The notes under the pieces were generated by a model. It saw nothing but the letters and a program-made list of their open reading frames with translations. It made no database searches and had not been told where the DNA came from. Source: Candidatus Stackebrandtia excrementipullorum (lineage in GTDB: Bacteria > Actinomycetota > Actinomycetes > Mycobacteriales > Micromonosporaceae). Taken from it: a stretch of DNA of 36,111 nt. Numbering within the stretch: position 1 is the first letter of the stretch; each line of letters opens with the position of its first letter. Below are positions 22,181 to 35,127 of this stretch, piece after piece. The translations under genes were made by a program, and so were the position numbers. The stretch is taken from NCBI GenBank assembly GCA_019113825.1, contig DXGR01000115.1:1-36111 (forward strand). Direction: 5' to 3'.

Positions 22181-25100
22181 TCATCGGCGGGTTTTTTCCT
22201 CGTCGGTGTGTACGCGGGCGGCGCCGCATTCGCTCAGAACCGCGTTGGCCTTCTCGGCCAACCGGTCGTCGCCCGACATGACCGCGCCCAGGTGAACGGC
22301 GCGTGCCTTCCCGACCCGGTCGCCGCAGGCGGCGAATTCGGTTTCGGCGGACCGGACGTCTCGCAGCGCCCGGTCCACGTCGCCCCGGTTTCGGTGGATC
22401 CGACCCCGGACGAACACCGCTCGGGCGTGGAGCAGCCTGTACCCGTATCGGTCGGCCAGACGCAGTGCCGTCTCGGCCGACGTGAGTGCGTCGCCGGGCC
22501 GTTTCAACGCCAGGCGGGCGTGCGCCCCCACGAGGTGCGCGTCGGTCTCGATCTGCGCGAGCGACGTTTCCCGGGCATAGCGGGCGGCGGCTGAGGCCAG
22601 TCCGTCTGCTTCTTCGGCGTCGCCGGTGCACCACGCCAACGTCACCATTGCACGCGGCACATACAGTTCGGACGTTCCTTTTTGCAGGTGTTCGTACGAC
22701 TCGACGGCGTGAGCCCTGGCCGCGACGACATCACCGCGTTCTATATGGATTCTTGCTAGGACGTCGAGCACGTACGACTTCGACATGCGGTGCGCCGCAG
22801 CGTATTGCAAAGCCCGCTGTGCATGTTCGGTGGCCGCTGCCAGGTCACCCGTTTCGCGGCAGGTCACCGCGAGGTTCCACAGGGCGGGCGCCAGTTTCGG
22901 TCCTGTAAGCGTGTCGACCAACTGTTCGAGCAGACGTCGGGATGTGGCTGTATCGCCTCGTTCCCGATGGATCGAGCCCAGGACGTTCACCCCGATCATG
23001 CGGTGCCGATCCGTCGGGTCCGGGACCGCCAGAGCCTCCTCTGCGCGCCGAACGGCCTCGTCGAGCCGACCGGAACGGTAGTACAGTTCGGCCAGGTCCA
23101 GTTGAATCGTCGACCGCAAGGCGTCACGGCGGGTATCCGCGAGAGCCGCCAACAGCAGTTTTTCCGCGCCTGCCGGGTCACCCAGGAATTTGATCCTCCG
23201 GGCCAGTGTCGTCCGCAGAACCACCGTCGCATCGTGTTCACCGGCGGTCGTGGCGGCTTTCAGCCCCAGTTCGATCAGTTCGCTGTGCACCGGGCGGTCC
23301 ATACCGCGTTCCAGGTACAGACGCATCGCGTCGACCAACAACCAGGCCGCGGCGTTCTCGACCGCGACGGCGCGTCTGATCGCGGCGACCAGGTTGTCGA
23401 CCTCGTTGCGAAACCACGTGATGGCGGCCTCTCCACTGGAAAAGGTCGGCACGTCGACGCCGGCAGTCACCGCCGGTGCGGGCAGCTGTAGACCGCCCGC
23501 GCTGATCGCCTCCGAGGCACGGCGCGCACTGTGGACATACCAGTCGAACAAACGGCTCTGCGCATCCGAGGTTTCGAGCTCGTCGAACCACTCGGCCGCG
23601 TAGTCGCACAGGCGGCCACGCACCGCATAGGAGTCGGGTGCCGTCTTAACGATCAAACGGGCCTCCTCCAACGTCCGCAACGCCACATCGGCGTCCGCCG
23701 AGTCCATGGCCGCCATGCAGGCGACGGCACGTCCCGGCGCGCTCGACCCGGGAACCGACCCGAGACACCCGAACACCGTGCGAGCCCGCTCGTCGAGCCG
23801 GGAGAAGACGTGGTCGAAGACCGCCCGGACCGGGTCGTCGTGGCGGAAGCCCAACGCGTCTACGTAGTCGCAAAGCCGTTCGTCGTCGTCAAGCCCGGCG
23901 CAGGCCAGCTTCAACGCCAACGGGAAACCGGCGCAGACCGTCACCAACCGATCCGCGGCCGTCGGTTCGGCCGTCGCCCGCTCACCCAGCAGCGCCGCCA
24001 ACAAACCCATCGAGTCCGCACGAGACAATCCCGGCACGGTAACCCGTCGTGCGTCCTGAAGGGCCACCAAACCCGACAGGGCATGACGACTGGTCACCAC
24101 CACCAGGCTTCCCGCGCCGGTGGGAGTCAACGTACGCACCACATCCGGATCGGCGACGTCGTCAAGCACCAGCAACAGTCGACGATTCGCCGTACGCGAG
24201 CGGTACAGGGCCAACCGGTCGTCGACGTCGGCGGGAATCGACGGGCCGGTAACCCCCAACGCCGTCAACAACCGCGCCAACACATCGCTCATGGTGTCGA
24301 CCGAGCGATCACCGTGCAGATGCTCGAACAGTCGCCCGTCGGGAAAGTCGTCGACGATCCGATGTGCCCAGTTCAACGCCAGGGTCGTCTTCCCGACCCC
24401 GGCTTCGCCGGTGACGAGCACGATCTGGACCGTATCGTCACGGCTGTCGGCGAACAAAGCGTCCAGTTCACGCATCGGGCCGTCCCGCCCGGTCGGGTGT
24501 GCAGCCGTCGGCATCATCGGAGACGGCGACGGCGACGACAACGCCGACTCGGGCTGAAGATTCGGGTCCTGCCTAAGAATCCGCCGTTGCATGCGACGCA
24601 ACCGAGCCGACGGCTCGACGCCGAACTCGTCACGCAACCGGGCGACGGTTTCGGAGTACAACGCCAACGCGTCGGCCTGCCTACCCGACAGGAACACGGC
24701 GCGCATCAGCTCGGCGATCAACGGTTCCTCACGCGGATAGGCGACCACAGCTTCGGTCAGTTCACCGATGACGGCGCCGTGACCGCCCGCGTCGAGCTCC
24801 GCCGCGTACAGGTTACGTAGGTTCGCGACGTGTTCCCGTGTCAAGGCGGCACGAACCCGGTCCGCCCAGGCGGTTTCGATATGCGCCAGGGGACGGTCAC
24901 GCCACAGGGCGACAGCTCGGCGCCAACAGTCGACGGCCCCACCGATGTCACCGATGTCGTGCAAGGACGACGCCTTGGCGGCCAGGTCACGCATCACGAA
25001 CAGGTCGATCGCTCCGTCGTCGACTTCCAAGCGGTAACCGTTGCCGGCGCCGCGTTGAATCGACGCGTCGGGGACCGTGGCGATCAATCGCCGAAGGCGG

Positions 25101-25300
25101 GCCACATAGCTGTACAGGGCGCTGCGCGACGACGGCGGCGGCTCACTCCCCCATGCGCGCAGAATCAATGCCGACTGCGGGACCGAACGACGTGGAGAAA
25201 CGGCCAACGCCGCCAAGATCGCCGCCTGTTTCGCCGGGCCGGCGCGACACCATCGCTTCTCGACCAAAACCTCAACGGATCCGAGGATACGGAGAAACAC
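22181..25300 (-). CDS. AfsR/SARP-family transcriptional regulator (SARP-NB-ARC-TPR)
   Basis: A 1039-residue regulator of the AfsR type. An OmpR-like winged helix (about 1-95) with RSVPQSALILRAWG and SALYSYVARLRRLI leads into the BTAD domain (100-245, ending EFGVEPSARLRRMQ). The NB-ARC ATPase follows with Walker A GEAGVGKTT at 298-306, Walker B LLLVLDD and a later LPLALKLACAGL-like segment. The last 400 residues are tetratricopeptide repeats. Such proteins activate secondary-metabolite or developmental genes by binding heptamer direct repeats, switching with ATP. The GTG at 25300 has AGAAGG 6 bases upstream. No biosynthetic cluster adjoins it, so its target is unknown; a heptamer direct repeat lies in its own promoter. 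Confidence 0.92.
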   Translation of the reverse strand: MFLRILGSVEVLVEKRWCRAGPAKQAAILAALAVSPRRSVPQSALILRAWGSEPPPSSRSALYSYVARLRRLIATVPDASIQRGAGNGYRLEVDDGAIDLFVMRDLAAKASSLHDIGDIGGAVDCWRRAVALWRDRPLAHIETAWADRVRAALTREHVANLRNLYAAELDAGGHGAVIGELTEAVVAYPREEPLIAELMRAVFLSGRQADALALYSETVARLRDEFGVEPSARLRRMQRRILRQDPNLQPESALSSPSPSPMMPTAAHPTGRDGPMRELDALFADSRDDTVQIVLVTGEAGVGKTTLALNWAHRIVDDFPDGRLFEHLHGDRSVDTMSDVLARLLTALGVTGPSIPADVDDRLALYRSRTANRRLLLVLDDVADPDVVRTLTPTGAGSLVVVTSRHALSGLVALQDARRVTVPGLSRADSMGLLAALLGERATAEPTAADRLVTVCAGFPLALKLACAGLDDDERLCDYVDALGFRHDDPVRAVFDHVFSRLDERARTVFGCLGSVPGSSAPGRAVACMAAMDSADADVALRTLEEARLIVKTAPDSYAVRGRLCDYAAEWFDELETSDAQSRLFDWYVHSARRASEAISAGGLQLPAPAVTAGVDVPTFSSGEAAITWFRNEVDNLVAAIRRAVAVENAAAWLLVDAMRLYLERGMDRPVHSELIELGLKAATTAGEHDATVVLRTTLARRIKFLGDPAGAEKLLLAALADTRRDALRSTIQLDLAELYYRSGRLDEAVRRAEEALAVPDPTDRHRMIGVNVLGSIHRERGDTATSRRLLEQLVDTLTGPKLAPALWNLAVTCRETGDLAAATEHAQRALQYAAAHRMSKSYVLDVLARIHIERGDVVAARAHAVESYEHLQKGTSELYVPRAMVTLAWCTGDAEEADGLASAAARYARETSLAQIETDAHLVGAHARLALKRPGDALTSAETALRLADRYGYRLLHARAVFVRGRIHRNRGDVDRALRDVRSAETEFAACGDRVGKARAVHLGAVMSGDDRLAEKANAVLSECGAARVHTDEEKTRR

Positions 25301-25324
25301 TGCGCACCTTCTCTAACGGGCTTA

Positions 25325-25440
25325 AGCAAGATTATGCAAGATACGGACTGGATTTCATCTTTACCGTGTGAGCCTTGGGGCCGAAAAGGTCGTTCCATCG
25401 TCTTAGCCGATCTGAGGCGATGGGGCGACCGCCCCCATAT
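25325..25440. repeat. Structured 116-nt element, copy 1
   Basis: It aligns without gaps up to the hairpin with a second copy at 25641-25756. Conserved blocks are the CAAGATT.TGCAAG start, TTGGGGCCGAAA, GATCTGAG and a CCCCCA.AT end. The hairpin has left arm 25388-25400 (GGTCGTTCCATCG), right arm 25418-25430 (CGATGGGGCGACC) and an inner helix CTTAG/CTGAG around CCGAT. Three positions pair as G-U only if the plus strand is the RNA. It lies just upstream of the leftward SARP gene. Whether it is an RNA, a terminator or a repeat family is not settled. Confidence 0.75.
25326..25342 (-). promoter_or_regulatory. Heptamer direct repeat upstream of the SARP gene
   Basis: GCAAGAT-TAT-GCAAGAT (on the minus strand ATCTTGC-ATA-ATCTTGC) is an exact heptamer repeat with a 10-bp period, 26-42 bases before the regulator's GTG. 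SARP proteins bind heptamer direct repeats of about one helical turn, so this could be an autoregulatory site. The minus-strand CATAAT inside it could alternatively be the -10 box. Confidence 0.45.
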
Positions 25441-25640
25441 AACGGCGGTACACGGGTCGCCGAATCGTTTCACCGATATTTCATTCTCATGAATCGTTTT
25501 CTCGTTATTCGGCCTTGAACGGCCGTCCGCGTGAACGCGCCGAAAAACCGTGTCCACCCGAGGCCGTCGTACACCTCCAGAACACCGCGGACGGATTCAC
25601 TCACATCACCGGGCATCTCGATCTTGCCGTCAACTCACCG

Positions 25641-25756
25641 AACAAGATTGTGCAAGGTTGACGATGGATCCACCGGATACCTTATGCGCATTGGGGCCGA
25701 AAGGCCGCCTCGTTTCCTCAGCAGATCTGAGAAAACGAGGCGGCCCACCCCCACAT
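25641..25756. repeat. Structured 116-nt element, copy 2
   Basis: The second copy has a perfect 13-bp outer helix: 25703-25715 (GGCCGCCTCGTTT) with 25733-25745 (AAACGAGGCGGCC). Inside it, CTCAG/CTGAG pairs around CAGAT (25717-25731). The heptamer repeat is present but degenerate (ACAAGAT-TGT-GCAAGGT, 25642-25658). It ends 7 bases from the stop of the leftward S9 peptidase gene, so at least this copy could serve as that operon's terminator. Confidence 0.78.
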
Positions 25757-25762
25757 TCACCG

Positions 25763-27607
25763 CTAGGGCACGGAAACCCCACCGAACGTATTCGCGGCAA
25801 CGACATTCCGTGATCCCGTCAACCGCGACGCGAACCATTCGATGGTGTCGTTCAACAACGCGACACGGGCGTTTCTCGTCCGAAGCACATGCCCTTCGTC
25901 GGCGAACATCGTCAATTCCGCGGGAACACCCGCCGCCCGCAATGCACGATGCAGCGTCAAAGCCTGATGCGACGGCACTTTACGGTCTTTGTCACCGTGC
26001 ACGATCAGAGTCGGTGTCCGGGTTCCGCTCAGATGAGTCACCGGCGAAATCGCGTCGAACCCGGCACGGTCGGGAAAACGCGCGTCGGGAACAAACCCCT
26101 CCCAGACCGGCCCCATCGGCGACGAACCGATGAAACTGTAATAGTCGCTAATGCCCGCACCGACCACGGCGGCAGCAAAACGGTTACTCCGTGCGATCGC
26201 CCAAGCGGTGAGGTAACCCCCGTAGCTCCAGCCGCCCACGCCCAACGCCGTCGGGTCGGCCACGCCTCGGTCCACCATCGCGTCGACACCACTGAGGACG
26301 TCTCTCAGCGGAAGGTCGCCGAGGCTTCCCCGTACGGCGTGCGCATACGCCCAACCGCGCCCGGTCGAACCTCTCGGGTTCGGCAGGAAAACCGCCATGC
26401 CGCGTGCCGCCAACAGTTGCGCCCAGTCCATCCAGGAACCCAACCAACCGGCGCTCCAGTGGTAATGCGGACCGCCGTGCAGGTTCACGACCATCGGTCC
26501 CGGTCCGGTCCGTTCCGGCTCCACCAGCAAACCCGTAATCGTCGTACCGTCACTGTCCCACGCGACCTCGGAGACCGGGGCGGTGTGACGGTCACGTACC
26601 CACGGGTTGGCGTCGCTGACGCGACGACGCCGAGAACCGTTCCACACATACAGATCCGGCGCCGCATCGCAACGGCCGTCAACAGAAACGATACGACCAC
26701 GCCTCCGGCCATAGGAGAAACGTGGTTGACCGGTCTCCATGTCCCCCAACGGTTGCGCCTCGCCAGGGCTGCTCCCCTGAAGCGGCACCCGCACGAGAGA
26801 CGACCGGGTATTCGTAAACACCTGTGCCACGACCGCGTCGTCGGCGGCCCAATCGGCGGCCAGAACCGTCCCCGCCTCGTCGGGCAGCAGCACGTGTGCC
26901 GGGCCGCCCGTCAACGGCACCACAGCCGGACGGTGCCCGTGCTCGATCCCACCGAGGCTGAACAGCACCCGCGAACCGTCCGGAGACACCTCGAGGGTCC
27001 GGTCGCGACTGGTCGGCCTGCTGGCGCCCTCACACAGAACACGCTCGACAAGCCCGGAGCCGACGTCGAGGAGGACCAGCCGATCGTCGTCGGTCACCGC
27101 GACCACTTTCGCCGGATCCGGTGTGGCCGTGACGTTCAGCACGTCAACGGCCGTATCGACAAGCCGGGCCGCGCCACCCGGGACCTCAACGATCCACAGG
27201 CGACAACGTCCGCCACGGTTCGCGACAACGAGCATCCCCACCGGCCCCGACGCCAACATCCGGACCCGCCCGAGGTCGTCCGGCAACCGGACCGTCACCG
27301 TCCCCGCCGCATCCGGTCCCGTGAGGATCGCGCCGTTCGCGTCGACGTCGGCCACCAGCGCCACGTCACCGGCGGGGCTCCAGCACGGCTCGCTCCCGAT
27401 ATCGTGCACCACGAGTCGACGCTCGACCGGCTCACCGTCGAGCCGCGTCGTCACCAATTCCACCGTCTCCGGGCCGGTATGGACGGTCGCGACATGCGAA
27501 CCGTCGGGCGACATCACCGGCCGCCCCAGCTCCACCAGTCCCGCGAGGTCCGCGGCCGACAACGGAACCGTCGTCGGCCGCGGTGCACCCATCACGTCAA
27601 ACCCCAT
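25763..27607 (-). CDS. S9-family prolyl-oligopeptidase-type hydrolase
   Basis: A 614-residue serine hydrolase. The first 340 residues or so are a beta-propeller-like region with WD40/TolB-type repeats (SPDGSHVATV, SPDGSRVLFSL). The C-terminal alpha/beta hydrolase domain has Ser in GGWSYGGY (about 459), Asp in VHGDKDRKVP (about 537) and His in DEGHVLR (about 568). No signal peptide is seen, so it should be cytoplasmic. It starts 4 bases after the stop of the siderophore-binding protein gene and is the last gene of an iron-regulated operon. Cleavage of an imported peptidic or ester siderophore is an attractive inference; a housekeeping peptidase is the alternative. ATG 27592 is another possible start. 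Confidence 0.9.
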   Translation of the reverse strand: MGFDVMGAPRPTTVPLSAADLAGLVELGRPVMSPDGSHVATVHTGPETVELVTTRLDGEPVERRLVVHDIGSEPCWSPAGDVALVADVDANGAILTGPDAAGTVTVRLPDDLGRVRMLASGPVGMLVVANRGGRCRLWIVEVPGGAARLVDTAVDVLNVTATPDPAKVVAVTDDDRLVLLDVGSGLVERVLCEGASRPTSRDRTLEVSPDGSRVLFSLGGIEHGHRPAVVPLTGGPAHVLLPDEAGTVLAADWAADDAVVAQVFTNTRSSLVRVPLQGSSPGEAQPLGDMETGQPRFSYGRRRGRIVSVDGRCDAAPDLYVWNGSRRRRVSDANPWVRDRHTAPVSEVAWDSDGTTITGLLVEPERTGPGPMVVNLHGGPHYHWSAGWLGSWMDWAQLLAARGMAVFLPNPRGSTGRGWAYAHAVRGSLGDLPLRDVLSGVDAMVDRGVADPTALGVGGWSYGGYLTAWAIARSNRFAAAVVGAGISDYYSFIGSSPMGPVWEGFVPDARFPDRAGFDAISPVTHLSGTRTPTLIVHGDKDRKVPSHQALTLHRALRAAGVPAELTMFADEGHVLRTRNARVALLNDTIEWFASRLTGSRNVVAANTFGGVSVP

Positions 27608-33286: not shown

Positions 33287-35035
33287 TCACGACGGGAACC
33301 GAGGTTCCGGGGCTGTGGCGCAGTTGGTAGCGCGCTTCGTTCGCAACGAAGAGGCCAGGGGTTCGAATCCCCTCAGCTCCACCAGAAGGTCGTTGTTCAA
33401 ACCAGCGACATCACCGGTTTGAGTTCCAGATTCCGTCGTCCGTCCTTGGTGGTGGACGGCGAGGGTCTGGATGTCGGGGTTGAAGAACACGTTGAACGGC
33501 ACGCCGGGTTCGCCGTGGATGGTGTCGTCGTCGGTGACGATGAGCTTGTCGAAGAAGGCCTGATTGGCGATCCGGCGCAGTGAGTCGTCGATGCTCATGT
33601 AGATGGCATGCATGTCGCCTGCGAGGGCGAGGCAGTCCTCCAGGTGCGCTTTGGCTTGTTCATACTCGATGTCTCCGGCGTTGATCTGGGCGTCGAGGAA
33701 GGCGAGCCGTCGGGCGATGCGGTCCTGCTCGCTCCCCAGGAGGTCGAGGGGCACGGCGCCGGCGTAGTGGGCCTGCATGAGCTTCTGGCGTTCATCGCGG
33801 AGTGCGTCGCGTTCGATCTTGTACGCCTGGGCTTCCTGTCTGGCGACTTCGTGGAGCCGGTCGAACTCGCTGGTGACCAGCTCGCGCAGCGCATGAAGGA
33901 CGTGTTCGGGTATCTGCACGTGCCGGTAGTAGTCCTCGACGGCGGCTTCGATGTCGGGCACGAACATGGACTTGCGTTCGCAGTTGGTGCGCTTGGCGTG
34001 CCGTCCGGTGCACATGAAGTAGGGGTAGACGACCCCGCGGCGGCTCTTGGCGTTGGTCAGCGTGAGCCGGGACCCGCACTGCCCGCAGTACAGGGTGCCT
34101 TTGAGGTAATGGTCATGGGACTGGGTCTTCTCCCCGGAGGTCTGATGGGCGGTGAGCACGGCCTGGACTCGGTACCAGACCTCGGGCGCGACCAGGGGTT
34201 CGTGCAAGCCGTCGTAGCTGGCGCCGCGGAACCGGACGCTGCCCTTGTAGTAGGGGTTGGTCAGCATCTTGTGGATCGTGGACAGCACCGGCGCTTTGGA
34301 GGGCCGCTTCGGGGTCGGCACGGTGGTCAGGCCACGATCGATGAGTTCCTCGCGCAGGCTGATCGTGGAGTAGTTGCCGGTGGCGTAGGCCTCGAACGCC
34401 CACTTGACCAGGGGTGCCCGCTCGGGGTCGACCTCGACGGTGCGGACCTCGCGTCCGAGTTCGTCACGGCGGGTGACGTTGAGATAGCCCATCGGGGCTT
34501 TGCCGTTGGTGCCGCCGCCCTGGGCTTTCTGGTTCATGCCCTTGGAGACTTCACCGGCGAGGTTGCGGGAGTAGAACTCCGCGATGGTGGACATGATGCC
34601 GTGCAGCAGCATCCCCGAGGGGGTCTCGTCGATGTTCTCGGTCGCGGAGACGAGCATGACGCCGGCCTCTTTGAGGGCCAGGTGGATAGTCACGTCGTCG
34701 GCGCGGTTGCGGGCGAGCCGGTCGACCTCGTGGTCGATGCAGTAGGCGACCTGGTGGGTCTTGACGTACTCGATCATCCGCATCAGCTCGGGCCGGTCGG
34801 CCCTGCGGGCGGACTCGCCGGCGTCGATGAACTCTTCGATGATGATCGCGTTCAGCTCGCGTGCCTTGCGCAGGTTGGCCTCGCGCTGGGCGGGGATCGA
34901 GAAGCCCTCGTCCCGTCCGCCCTTGGAGGCCTGCTCCTTGGTGGACACACGCAGGTAGGAGACCGCGAGCGTGGTGGTCTCACCGACGCGATCCAGAGCC
35001 TCGGTGGCAGGTGGGAGTGATGTCGTGGTGGTCAT
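33287..35035 (-). CDS. Large serine recombinase / integrase
   Basis: A 582-residue site-specific integrase. The resolvase domain (about 22-170) has the nucleophile Ser31 in VSYLRVSTKEQ, with FSIPAQREANLRKA and DRLARNRADD. The recombinase domain follows (GYLNVTRRDELGREV, then ISLREELIDRGL, IHKMLTNPYYKG). A zinc ribbon has CGQCG and, 26 residues on, C-x9-C (MCTGRHAKRTNC), then a coiled-coil segment (about 410-470). The last 25 residues or so (beginning VELRGFEPLASSL) are translated from the antisense strand of the tRNA-Ala gene, so the natural stop was displaced by insertion. ATG 35035 starts the conserved protein; AAGG lies 11 bases upstream inside a folded leader. Confidence 0.93.
   Translation of the reverse strand: MTTTTSLPPATEALDRVGETTTLAVSYLRVSTKEQASKGGRDEGFSIPAQREANLRKARELNAIIIEEFIDAGESARRADRPELMRMIEYVKTHQVAYCIDHEVDRLARNRADDVTIHLALKEAGVMLVSATENIDETPSGMLLHGIMSTIAEFYSRNLAGEVSKGMNQKAQGGGTNGKAPMGYLNVTRRDELGREVRTVEVDPERAPLVKWAFEAYATGNYSTISLREELIDRGLTTVPTPKRPSKAPVLSTIHKMLTNPYYKGSVRFRGASYDGLHEPLVAPEVWYRVQAVLTAHQTSGEKTQSHDHYLKGTLYCGQCGSRLTLTNAKSRRGVVYPYFMCTGRHAKRTNCERKSMFVPDIEAAVEDYYRHVQIPEHVLHALRELVTSEFDRLHEVARQEAQAYKIERDALRDERQKLMQAHYAGAVPLDLLGSEQDRIARRLAFLDAQINAGDIEYEQAKAHLEDCLALAGDMHAIYMSIDDSLRRIANQAFFDKLIVTDDDTIHGEPGVPFNVFFNPDIQTLAVHHQGRTTESGTQTGDVAGLNNDLLVELRGFEPLASSLRTKRATNCATAPEPRFPS
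33308..33383 (+). tRNA. tRNA-Ala (anticodon CGC), CCA encoded
   Basis: The acceptor arm GGGGCTG pairs with CAGCTCC (one G-T pair), followed by A73 and an encoded CCA. The D stem is GCGC/GCGC, the anticodon stem CTTCG/CGAAG with loop TTCGCAA giving anticodon CGC, and the T arm AGGGG-TTCGAAT-CCCCT. It reads alanine codon GCG. Its 3' half is the insertion site of the adjacent integrated element. Confidence 0.97.
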
Positions 35036-35127
35036 GGGTCGTGTTTCCTTCCCCAGTGAGTTGGGGCCAGCACGAGCGGTCGCGGGACCGCTGGTGCGGT
35101 GCGACTCGTAAAGGGGAAACACGACCC
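35036..35127 (-). promoter_or_regulatory. Three-way-junction leader RNA abutting the integrase start codon
   Basis: Read leftward, a 13-bp helix (GGGTCGTGTTTCC with GGAAACACGACCC, 35115-35127 and 35036-35048) closes two hairpins. The first is GCAC-C-AGCGGTC pairing with GACCGCT-C-GTGC around CCGC. The second is CCCCA-ACTCAC-TGGGG. The closing helix ends at the base before the ATG and contains part of the AAGGAAA ribosome-binding site, so it should hinder translation when folded. Function is inferred; the arms could also be a DNA-level inverted repeat. Confidence 0.6.

Follow-up and report, generated by a model that had tools for sequence, protein, structure and literature searches.

Tandem hairpin elements upstream of a SARP/AfsR-like regulator gene as candidate small-RNA genes in Candidatus Stackebrandtia excrementipullorum

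The locus, its third copy and its spread

The window analysed here is the whole of a 36,111-nt contig (C100) from the 4.17 Mb source genome, that of Candidatus Stackebrandtia excrementipullorum (G000). On its minus strand lies the gene of a SARP/AfsR-like regulator (22181-25300), in which Pfam recognized the DNA-binding (PF00486, Trans_reg_C), BTAD (PF03704), NB-ARC (PF00931) and TPR domains. Because the protein scores only 290 bits against the NCBIfam AfsR equivalog, for which the cut-off is 1430, the regulator is not AfsR itself. Just upstream of this gene are two 116-nt units in tandem on the plus strand, at 25325-25440 and 25641-25756. A preliminary description of the locus had placed the two copies there and aligned them along their length; both the positions and the end-to-end alignment are correct.

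When 61 genomes were searched by BLAST with copy 2, the best match outside G000 was a third copy in another genome of the same genus (G003), with an E value of 0.0038. This copy was found before any model was built and can be aligned over the whole unit. The search, at E≤10, gave matches in 60 of the 61 genomes, so its list is mostly noise; among the matches at the four loci inspected (L003, L004, L006 and L015), only L003, the G003 copy, aligned over the unit. The G003 element lies ahead of the orthologous SARP/AfsR-like gene, 36 nt from its start, and the genes in common between the two loci are a metG-like gene (86% identity), an alpha/beta-hydrolase gene (Abhydrolase_8, 70%), the SARP gene (50%) and a mannosyltransferase-like gene (80%), where the metG-like and mannosyltransferase-like labels are presumptive and were read off the sequences, with no family model behind them. 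In the window, an S9 peptidase gene and the genes that the preliminary description called an iron operon separate copy 2 from the mannosyltransferase-like gene. The local DNA alignment of G000 and G003 extends out of the SARP gene as far as window position 25414, inside the hairpin of the element. Thus, it is the SARP gene to which the element belongs, rather than the S9 gene or the iron genes.

A covariance model built from the three copies was used to search 250 genomes of the family and 397 genomes of the order, two samples that overlap; both searches used stricter Infernal filters, with which some weak matches are lost. Among the family genomes, the full-length model matched at exactly three places with 117-123 bits, scores that hold by construction since the model was built from those three elements. 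The next best match anywhere in the 250 genomes had 39.1 bits, and some match at E≤0.5 was present in 25 of them, including G000 and G003. Hairpin 2 was also matched on its minus strand (25702-25745, 33.9 bits). Among the order genomes, a threshold of E≤1e-4 returned the same three places, one minus-strand match on hairpin 2 and one hairpin-only match elsewhere, so that three of the 397 genomes were matched, the third by a hairpin only. The model found no further full-scoring copy in G000 or G003.

Weaker model matches at 10 loci were rejected as homologues, with the repeat box described below at none of the ten; at two of them (L036 and L044) the tail-like TTGGGGCCGA lies, by eye, in apparent conserved coding sequence without a hairpin. 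A wider pattern scan of contigs, in which about three chance matches were expected by a rough estimate, gave matches in a Microbacterium, a Streptomyces and a Bacteroidota MAG. These three were also rejected, being without the box and, by eye, without the 19-pair hairpin. The G003 element fits the pattern of that scan and was not returned, the G003 species having no match in that contig collection.

Searching the window with Rfam 15 at the gathering threshold revealed only a tRNA at 33309-33381. In the region 25290-25800, five matches were obtained at E≤10, all far under threshold, of which the best by E-value was to a microRNA model (21.2 against 90.5 bits). The earlier remark that the element resembles no RNA family therefore holds against Rfam 15, and by Rfam the element is a new candidate small-RNA family of a general kind already known. 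The tRNA gene is overlapped on the minus strand by an open reading frame (33287-35122) which we take, on the basis of a motif, to be recombinase-like; this could be an integrated element at the tRNA.

Covariation, stability and strand of the hairpin

Each unit contains a 19-pair hairpin. In copy 1 (25388-25430) its arms are at 25388-25406 and 25412-25430 with the loop CCGAT, and in copy 2 (25703-25745) they are at 25703-25721 and 25727-25745 with the loop CAGAT and one C/A mismatch on the plus strand. Between the two copies, the 13-pair outer helix differs at seven pairs, five of which are double Watson-Crick changes and two are U-G/C-G swaps, and the inner helix differs by one U-G/C-G swap; the pair-by-pair account given previously is accurate on both helices. 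It had also stated that the wobble pairs are valid only on the plus strand. This is right for the wobbles listed, but the pair that joins the two helices (columns 77/93 of alignment A3) was skipped: it is U-G in copy 1 and C/A in copy 2, and the latter is a wobble on the minus strand only. Likewise, TTGGGGCCGAAA, GATCTGAG and CCCCCA are indeed unchanged between copies 1 and 2, whereas CCCCCA is missing from the G003 copy. The minimum-energy folds of both window copies contain the proposed closing helix of TGGGG with CCCCA, but this helix is invariant between the two copies and without covariation support. In the predicted folds it would join GGGGC (25377-25381) to GCCCC (25431-25435) in copy 1, spanning 25377-25435, and TGGGG (25692-25696) to CCCCA (25749-25753) in copy 2.

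Alignment A3 is made of copy 1, copy 2 and the G003 copy, that is, three sequences from two species. In A3, 55 of the 57 cells of the 19-pair hairpin are paired, a percentage that leans to copy 1 because the structure was drawn on that copy. Double changes occur at 7 of the 19 pairs, and seven pairs are invariant across the three sequences. The covariation score was 0.667, compared with 0.382 in shuffles and at most 0.298 in controls in which the structure was slid, and none of 500 shuffles reached the observed value. The percentage paired, the number of doubly changed pairs and the number of such cells were also reached by none of the 500 shuffles. A fifth measure, further pair types, was reached by 40 of the 500 and is unexceptional; the slid controls were far lower on all measures. 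Among the cells that can tell the strands apart, five U-G cells fit the plus strand only and the single C/A cell (copy 2) fits the minus strand only, while one T/T cell in G003 fits neither strand.

The plus-strand folds have z-scores of -5.1 (copy 1) and -5.7 (copy 2), and none of 200 shuffles folded as well in either case, which indicates that the fold is not due to chance. On the minus strand, the z-scores are -1.0 (copy 1) and -6.1 (copy 2). Folded alone, hairpin 1 has -31.4 kcal/mol on the plus strand vs -18.1 kcal/mol on the minus strand, and hairpin 3 (G003) has -35.0 vs -30.5 kcal/mol; hairpin 2, at -32.3 vs -37.1 kcal/mol, is better on the minus strand. The longer stretches 25371-25442 and 25688-25760 fold at -41.1 and -40.3 kcal/mol, respectively. 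The apical stem-loop (CTyAGCmGATCTGrG) and a 5' tail ahead of the stem are conserved in all three copies. The preliminary description had proposed selection on an RNA fold, and had named a lack of further homologues with covariation as the finding that would count against it; one further homologue was found and the covariation persists with it. Taken together, these results support selection on the RNA fold.

Promoter layout ahead of the hairpins

The first ~42 nt of the unit read GCAAGAT-3-GCAAGrT-4-nnTGGAT-8-TAnnnT. In copy 1 (25326-25367, plus strand) the heptamers are at 25326-25332, 25336-25342 and 25347-25353, and an 8-bp gap leads to TACCGT at 25362-25367. In copy 2 (25642-25683, plus strand) they are at 25642-25648, 25652-25658 and 25663-25669, and the same gap leads to TACCTT at 25678-25683. 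This layout is common to all three elements and also occurs ahead of protein-coding genes in G000 and G003: direct heptameric repeats about one helical turn apart, the third one degenerate, precede the three elements and two operons. The first ~42-45 nt of each unit thus look like promoter DNA rather than RNA. Because the 5' third of the unit has a SARP-type promoter layout that protein-coding genes also have, the unit is unlikely to be a single 116-nt RNA, and the RNA is probably only ~65-75 nt long.

SARP targets are described (PMC10936776) as direct repeats 11 or 22 bp apart with the 3' copy 8 bp from the -10 element. The promoters of afsS (activated by AfsR) and pimM (activated by PimR) are examples of SARP-activated promoters. 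Here, the distance from the 3' repeat to TAnnnT is 8 bp in the six sites compared, with the degenerate third repeat counted, and of the repeat intervals one is 11 bp, as in the classical spacing, and one is 10 bp. It is reported in PMC5930380 that PimR, a SARP-LAL regulator, binds CGGCAAG heptamers, also as a doublet in 10-bp units in a secondary operator; the GCAAG-containing heptamers and the 10-bp unit of our elements resemble that operator.

A search of five genomes of the genus for the box alone (GCAAGATTnnGCAAGAT, up to two mismatches) gave 9 sites, against 3 in the controls. The sites in G000:C7, G000:C82 and G001:C8 were dropped, as by eye they are without the third repeat and the -10 layout. 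Two operons have the full layout upstream. One is at G003 C1:625162, where a ribosome-binding site and an ATG follow the -10 by eye, and the other is at G000 C114:21487; the box stands ahead of the second gene in the G003 operon and of the first gene in the G000 operon. The YbaB-like proteins of the two operons have 30% identity (E 2e-18), with PF02575 matched only in the G000 one, and their small WXG-like proteins have 27% identity (E 1e-5). The WXG label is weak, since the WXG100 models are far under cut-off in the G000 protein and unmatched in the G003 protein.

Among 150 genomes of the family, the full-layout pattern gave five sites with zero mismatches (the two elements and the operon in G000, the element and the operon in G003), which holds by construction because the pattern was read from those sites. 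Sites with fewer than three mismatches were found only in G000 and G003. Outside the sites used to build the pattern, there is one with 1 mismatch in G000:C43 and there are two with 3 mismatches in G003, all ahead of homologous Cys-rich peptide genes. The other 148 genomes have 9 sites, all with 3 mismatches; a control pattern gave 10 sites across the full set of 150, with G000 and G003 having none.

The boxes of the peptide genes are at 38387-38427 of G000:C43 (minus strand) and at G003:C1:3667081 and 3667464, where the genes are in tandem. The peptides (MKK..R.AD..L.R.V...) have 65-67 residues with six Cys, and a G000 and a G003 peptide are 41% identical (E 9e-19). Pfam and NCBIfam at cut-off returned no family for the two Cys-rich peptides examined, which are possibly a family of secreted or modified peptides. 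A degenerate layout with 3 mismatches, already among the sites of the box-only search, was also seen at G003:C1:1143950-1143990 (minus strand), divergent from a paralogous SARP gene and followed by a possible 38-residue open reading frame with a ribosome-binding site by eye.

In a survey in which five candidates were scored per genome, a homologue of the adjacent SARP at E≤1e-160 was found in 3 of the 150 family genomes, namely G000, G003 (51% identity) and G001 (40% identity, without sites). The low-mismatch sites and a ~50%-identical SARP homologue therefore co-occur in the same 2 of 150 genomes. The three heptameric repeats, spaced at 10 and 11 bp with the last one 8 bp from TAnnnT, would be the binding site of a SARP/AfsR-like regulator that activates transcription of both elements. 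The product of the oppositely oriented gene directly upstream is the most likely candidate for this putative activator. Since SARP-like matches at E≤1e-30 number 12 in G000 and 22 in G003, another SARP could be the binder. On the minus strand, a consensus scan found one possible promoter of the SARP gene against 0.3 expected: ATGAAA-16-CATAAT at 25331-25358 (9/12), which overlaps the boxes of copy 1. The -10-like hexamers at the boxes are CATAAT in copy 1 and, by eye, CGTAAT in G003 and CACAAT in copy 2. The regulator may repress its own gene while activating the RNA, a reading that rests on few bases.

A candidate SARP-activated small RNA

We consider it likely that each copy is a plus-strand gene, activated by a SARP, for a noncoding RNA of ~65-75 nt, duplicated at this locus. 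From the sequence we infer that the RNA is noncoding, is transcribed upon SARP binding and starts a few nucleotides past the -10. The usual distance of a start from the -10 would put that of copy 1 near 25371-25374, which makes TTGGGGCCGAA its 5' tail. Small RNA 1 is thereby predicted at 25371-25440 (~70 nt, with the start set 4-7 nt past the -10-like hexamer), and small RNA 2 at 25688-25756, with start and end likewise predicted. Such an RNA would have a conserved 5' tail (GnGCnTTGGGGCCGAA), a long stem that drifts but stays paired, and a conserved apical stem-loop; in copies 1 and 2, the G's of the tail can form a closing helix with C's further downstream. The stem would probably stabilise the RNA and terminate its transcription, while the tail and the loop are the probable working parts. 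Our best guess is that they either base-pair with mRNAs from the same SARP regulon or bind a protein.

It is unlikely that the hairpins are only terminators, with that on the plus strand capping abortive transcription from the SARP promoter, that of copy 2 on the minus strand ending the S9 gene, and the RNA without function. The hairpins are strong, long and GC-rich, like those of intrinsic terminators, and the hairpin-only matches of the model elsewhere in the family show that such stems are common. Hairpin 2 sits 17 nt past the end of the S9 open reading frame (25763) and has its more stable fold on the minus strand, where it may also serve as the terminator of the S9 gene. However, a conserved tail and loop together with a drifting lower stem are expected of a working small RNA, while a mere terminator needs neither the tail nor the loop, and intrinsic terminators differ further from the elements in that the latter have a promoter layout of their own and no U tract on the plus strand (no U-rich terminator was found on that strand in 25250-25850, and two sites were found on the minus strand). 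A transcript read on the minus strand would pass copy 2 before reaching copy 1, and the gene that lies next past the element in G003 is a plus-strand one. Moreover, an activator-driven promoter that is terminated after ~60 nt would be a small-RNA gene in itself.

The location of the element, which in both species directly precedes the SARP gene, and the good minus-strand fold of copy 2 would also suit a minus-strand RNA that is part of the SARP mRNA, as its structured 5' leader, and regulates the regulator. A structured motif upstream of a Streptomyces afsR homologue, the asfR motif, has been published (PMC11109978). This reading is improbable, as hairpins 1 and 3 fold more stably as plus-strand RNA, five of the six strand-telling wobble-type cells fit that strand, and the promoter layout points to it, likewise at the protein-coding genes. 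According to PMC11109978, the asfR motif is a three-stem junction with P1a/P1b repeats, a presumed 5'-UTR upstream of the regulator, in Streptomyces only. Our element resembles it as a structured RNA candidate beside an AfsR-type regulator gene, and differs in being a single hairpin on the opposite strand, a distinction made from the published description of the motif. We find it highly improbable that a short peptide is encoded (MSLGAERSSRPLSRSG.. in G003, MRIGAERPPRFLSRSE.. in copy 2 and VSLGAEKVVPSS* in copy 1): although the G003 copy and copy 2 have a common open frame with similar residues, and other genes with the promoter layout encode small peptides, an extra base in copy 1 breaks the frame, with a stop after 12 codons by eye. 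Furthermore, inspection by eye showed no ribosome-binding site at the usual distance, in copies 2 and 3 the frame stays open far past the element, and the changes track base pairing. The tandem arrangement and palindromic core could finally be those of a DNA element, such as a mobile repeat, a recombination site or a protein-binding palindrome. We give this very little credence, since the two genomes have no other full-scoring copy and the stem changes keep pairing, in part through wobbles that a DNA cruciform could hold only as mismatches.

SARPs have mainly been studied as activators of antibiotic genes, and afsR and afsS adjoin each other. The regulator gene is adjacent to the driven gene here as well; unlike in known SARP promoters, the driven gene is apparently a short noncoding RNA rather than a protein, with the binding predicted. 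Regulator-controlled small RNAs that are duplicated neighbours are represented by PrrF1/F2 and OmrA/B. The candidate RNAs resemble these as tandem homologous short RNAs under one putative regulator, and differ from them in that this regulator is a SARP. Among the titles and abstract openings listed for papers on SARP or AfsR together with small or noncoding RNA, we found no SARP-driven small RNA. If the proposed SARP-activated RNA is real, it would belong to a testable SARP regulon in which the nearest target of the regulator is a structured RNA, and the promoter layout would allow further members of the regulon to be found by sequence. More speculatively, the SARP activator might drive a neighbouring pair of small RNAs that act on the translation of other members of its regulon, the WXG-like operon and the Cys-rich peptide genes. 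This would be a feed-forward circuit of protein and RNA that governs secreted peptides in actinomycetes, with an RNA in the position that the small protein AfsS holds next to AfsR.

When the 5' tail was compared with gene starts (11 comparisons, each against 300 random windows), gene A of G003 gave 0/300, and the next lowest fraction was 0.18. In larger tests, the fraction was 0.0047 of 6000 random windows for gene A of G003, and 0.26 (copy 1) and 0.03 (copy 2) of 2000 windows for the gene-A leader of G000. Thirteen comparisons with 414 or 415 start-like windows gave 0.0024 for gene A of G003 and at least 0.29 for the others. In G003, 11 bp of the tail can pair with CGGCCCCAAGG, which directly precedes the start of the YbaB-like gene, a match from one of 13 tests. 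No such pairing recurs around the start of the G000 YbaB-like gene, and exact TTCGGCCCCAA sites are not enriched in five genomes (19 vs 20 in controls, with 3 of the 19 being the elements themselves). We regard the 11-bp match between the tail and the YbaB-like mRNA as an unreplicated lead and not as a claimed target.

Other repeats were noted near SARP-like genes. In G001:C2 (L055:1369-1427), ~75-130 bases ahead of the match to the SARP homologue with 40% identity, there is a 13-bp perfect inverted repeat (GTCGGACGGCCCG / CGGGCCGTCCGAC), and no GCAAG boxes were found at that locus. In G000:C19 (L063:187-511), near another SARP-like gene, six CRISPR-like repeats with the core CGCGCACGCGGGGATGGTCC occur at a 61-base spacing.
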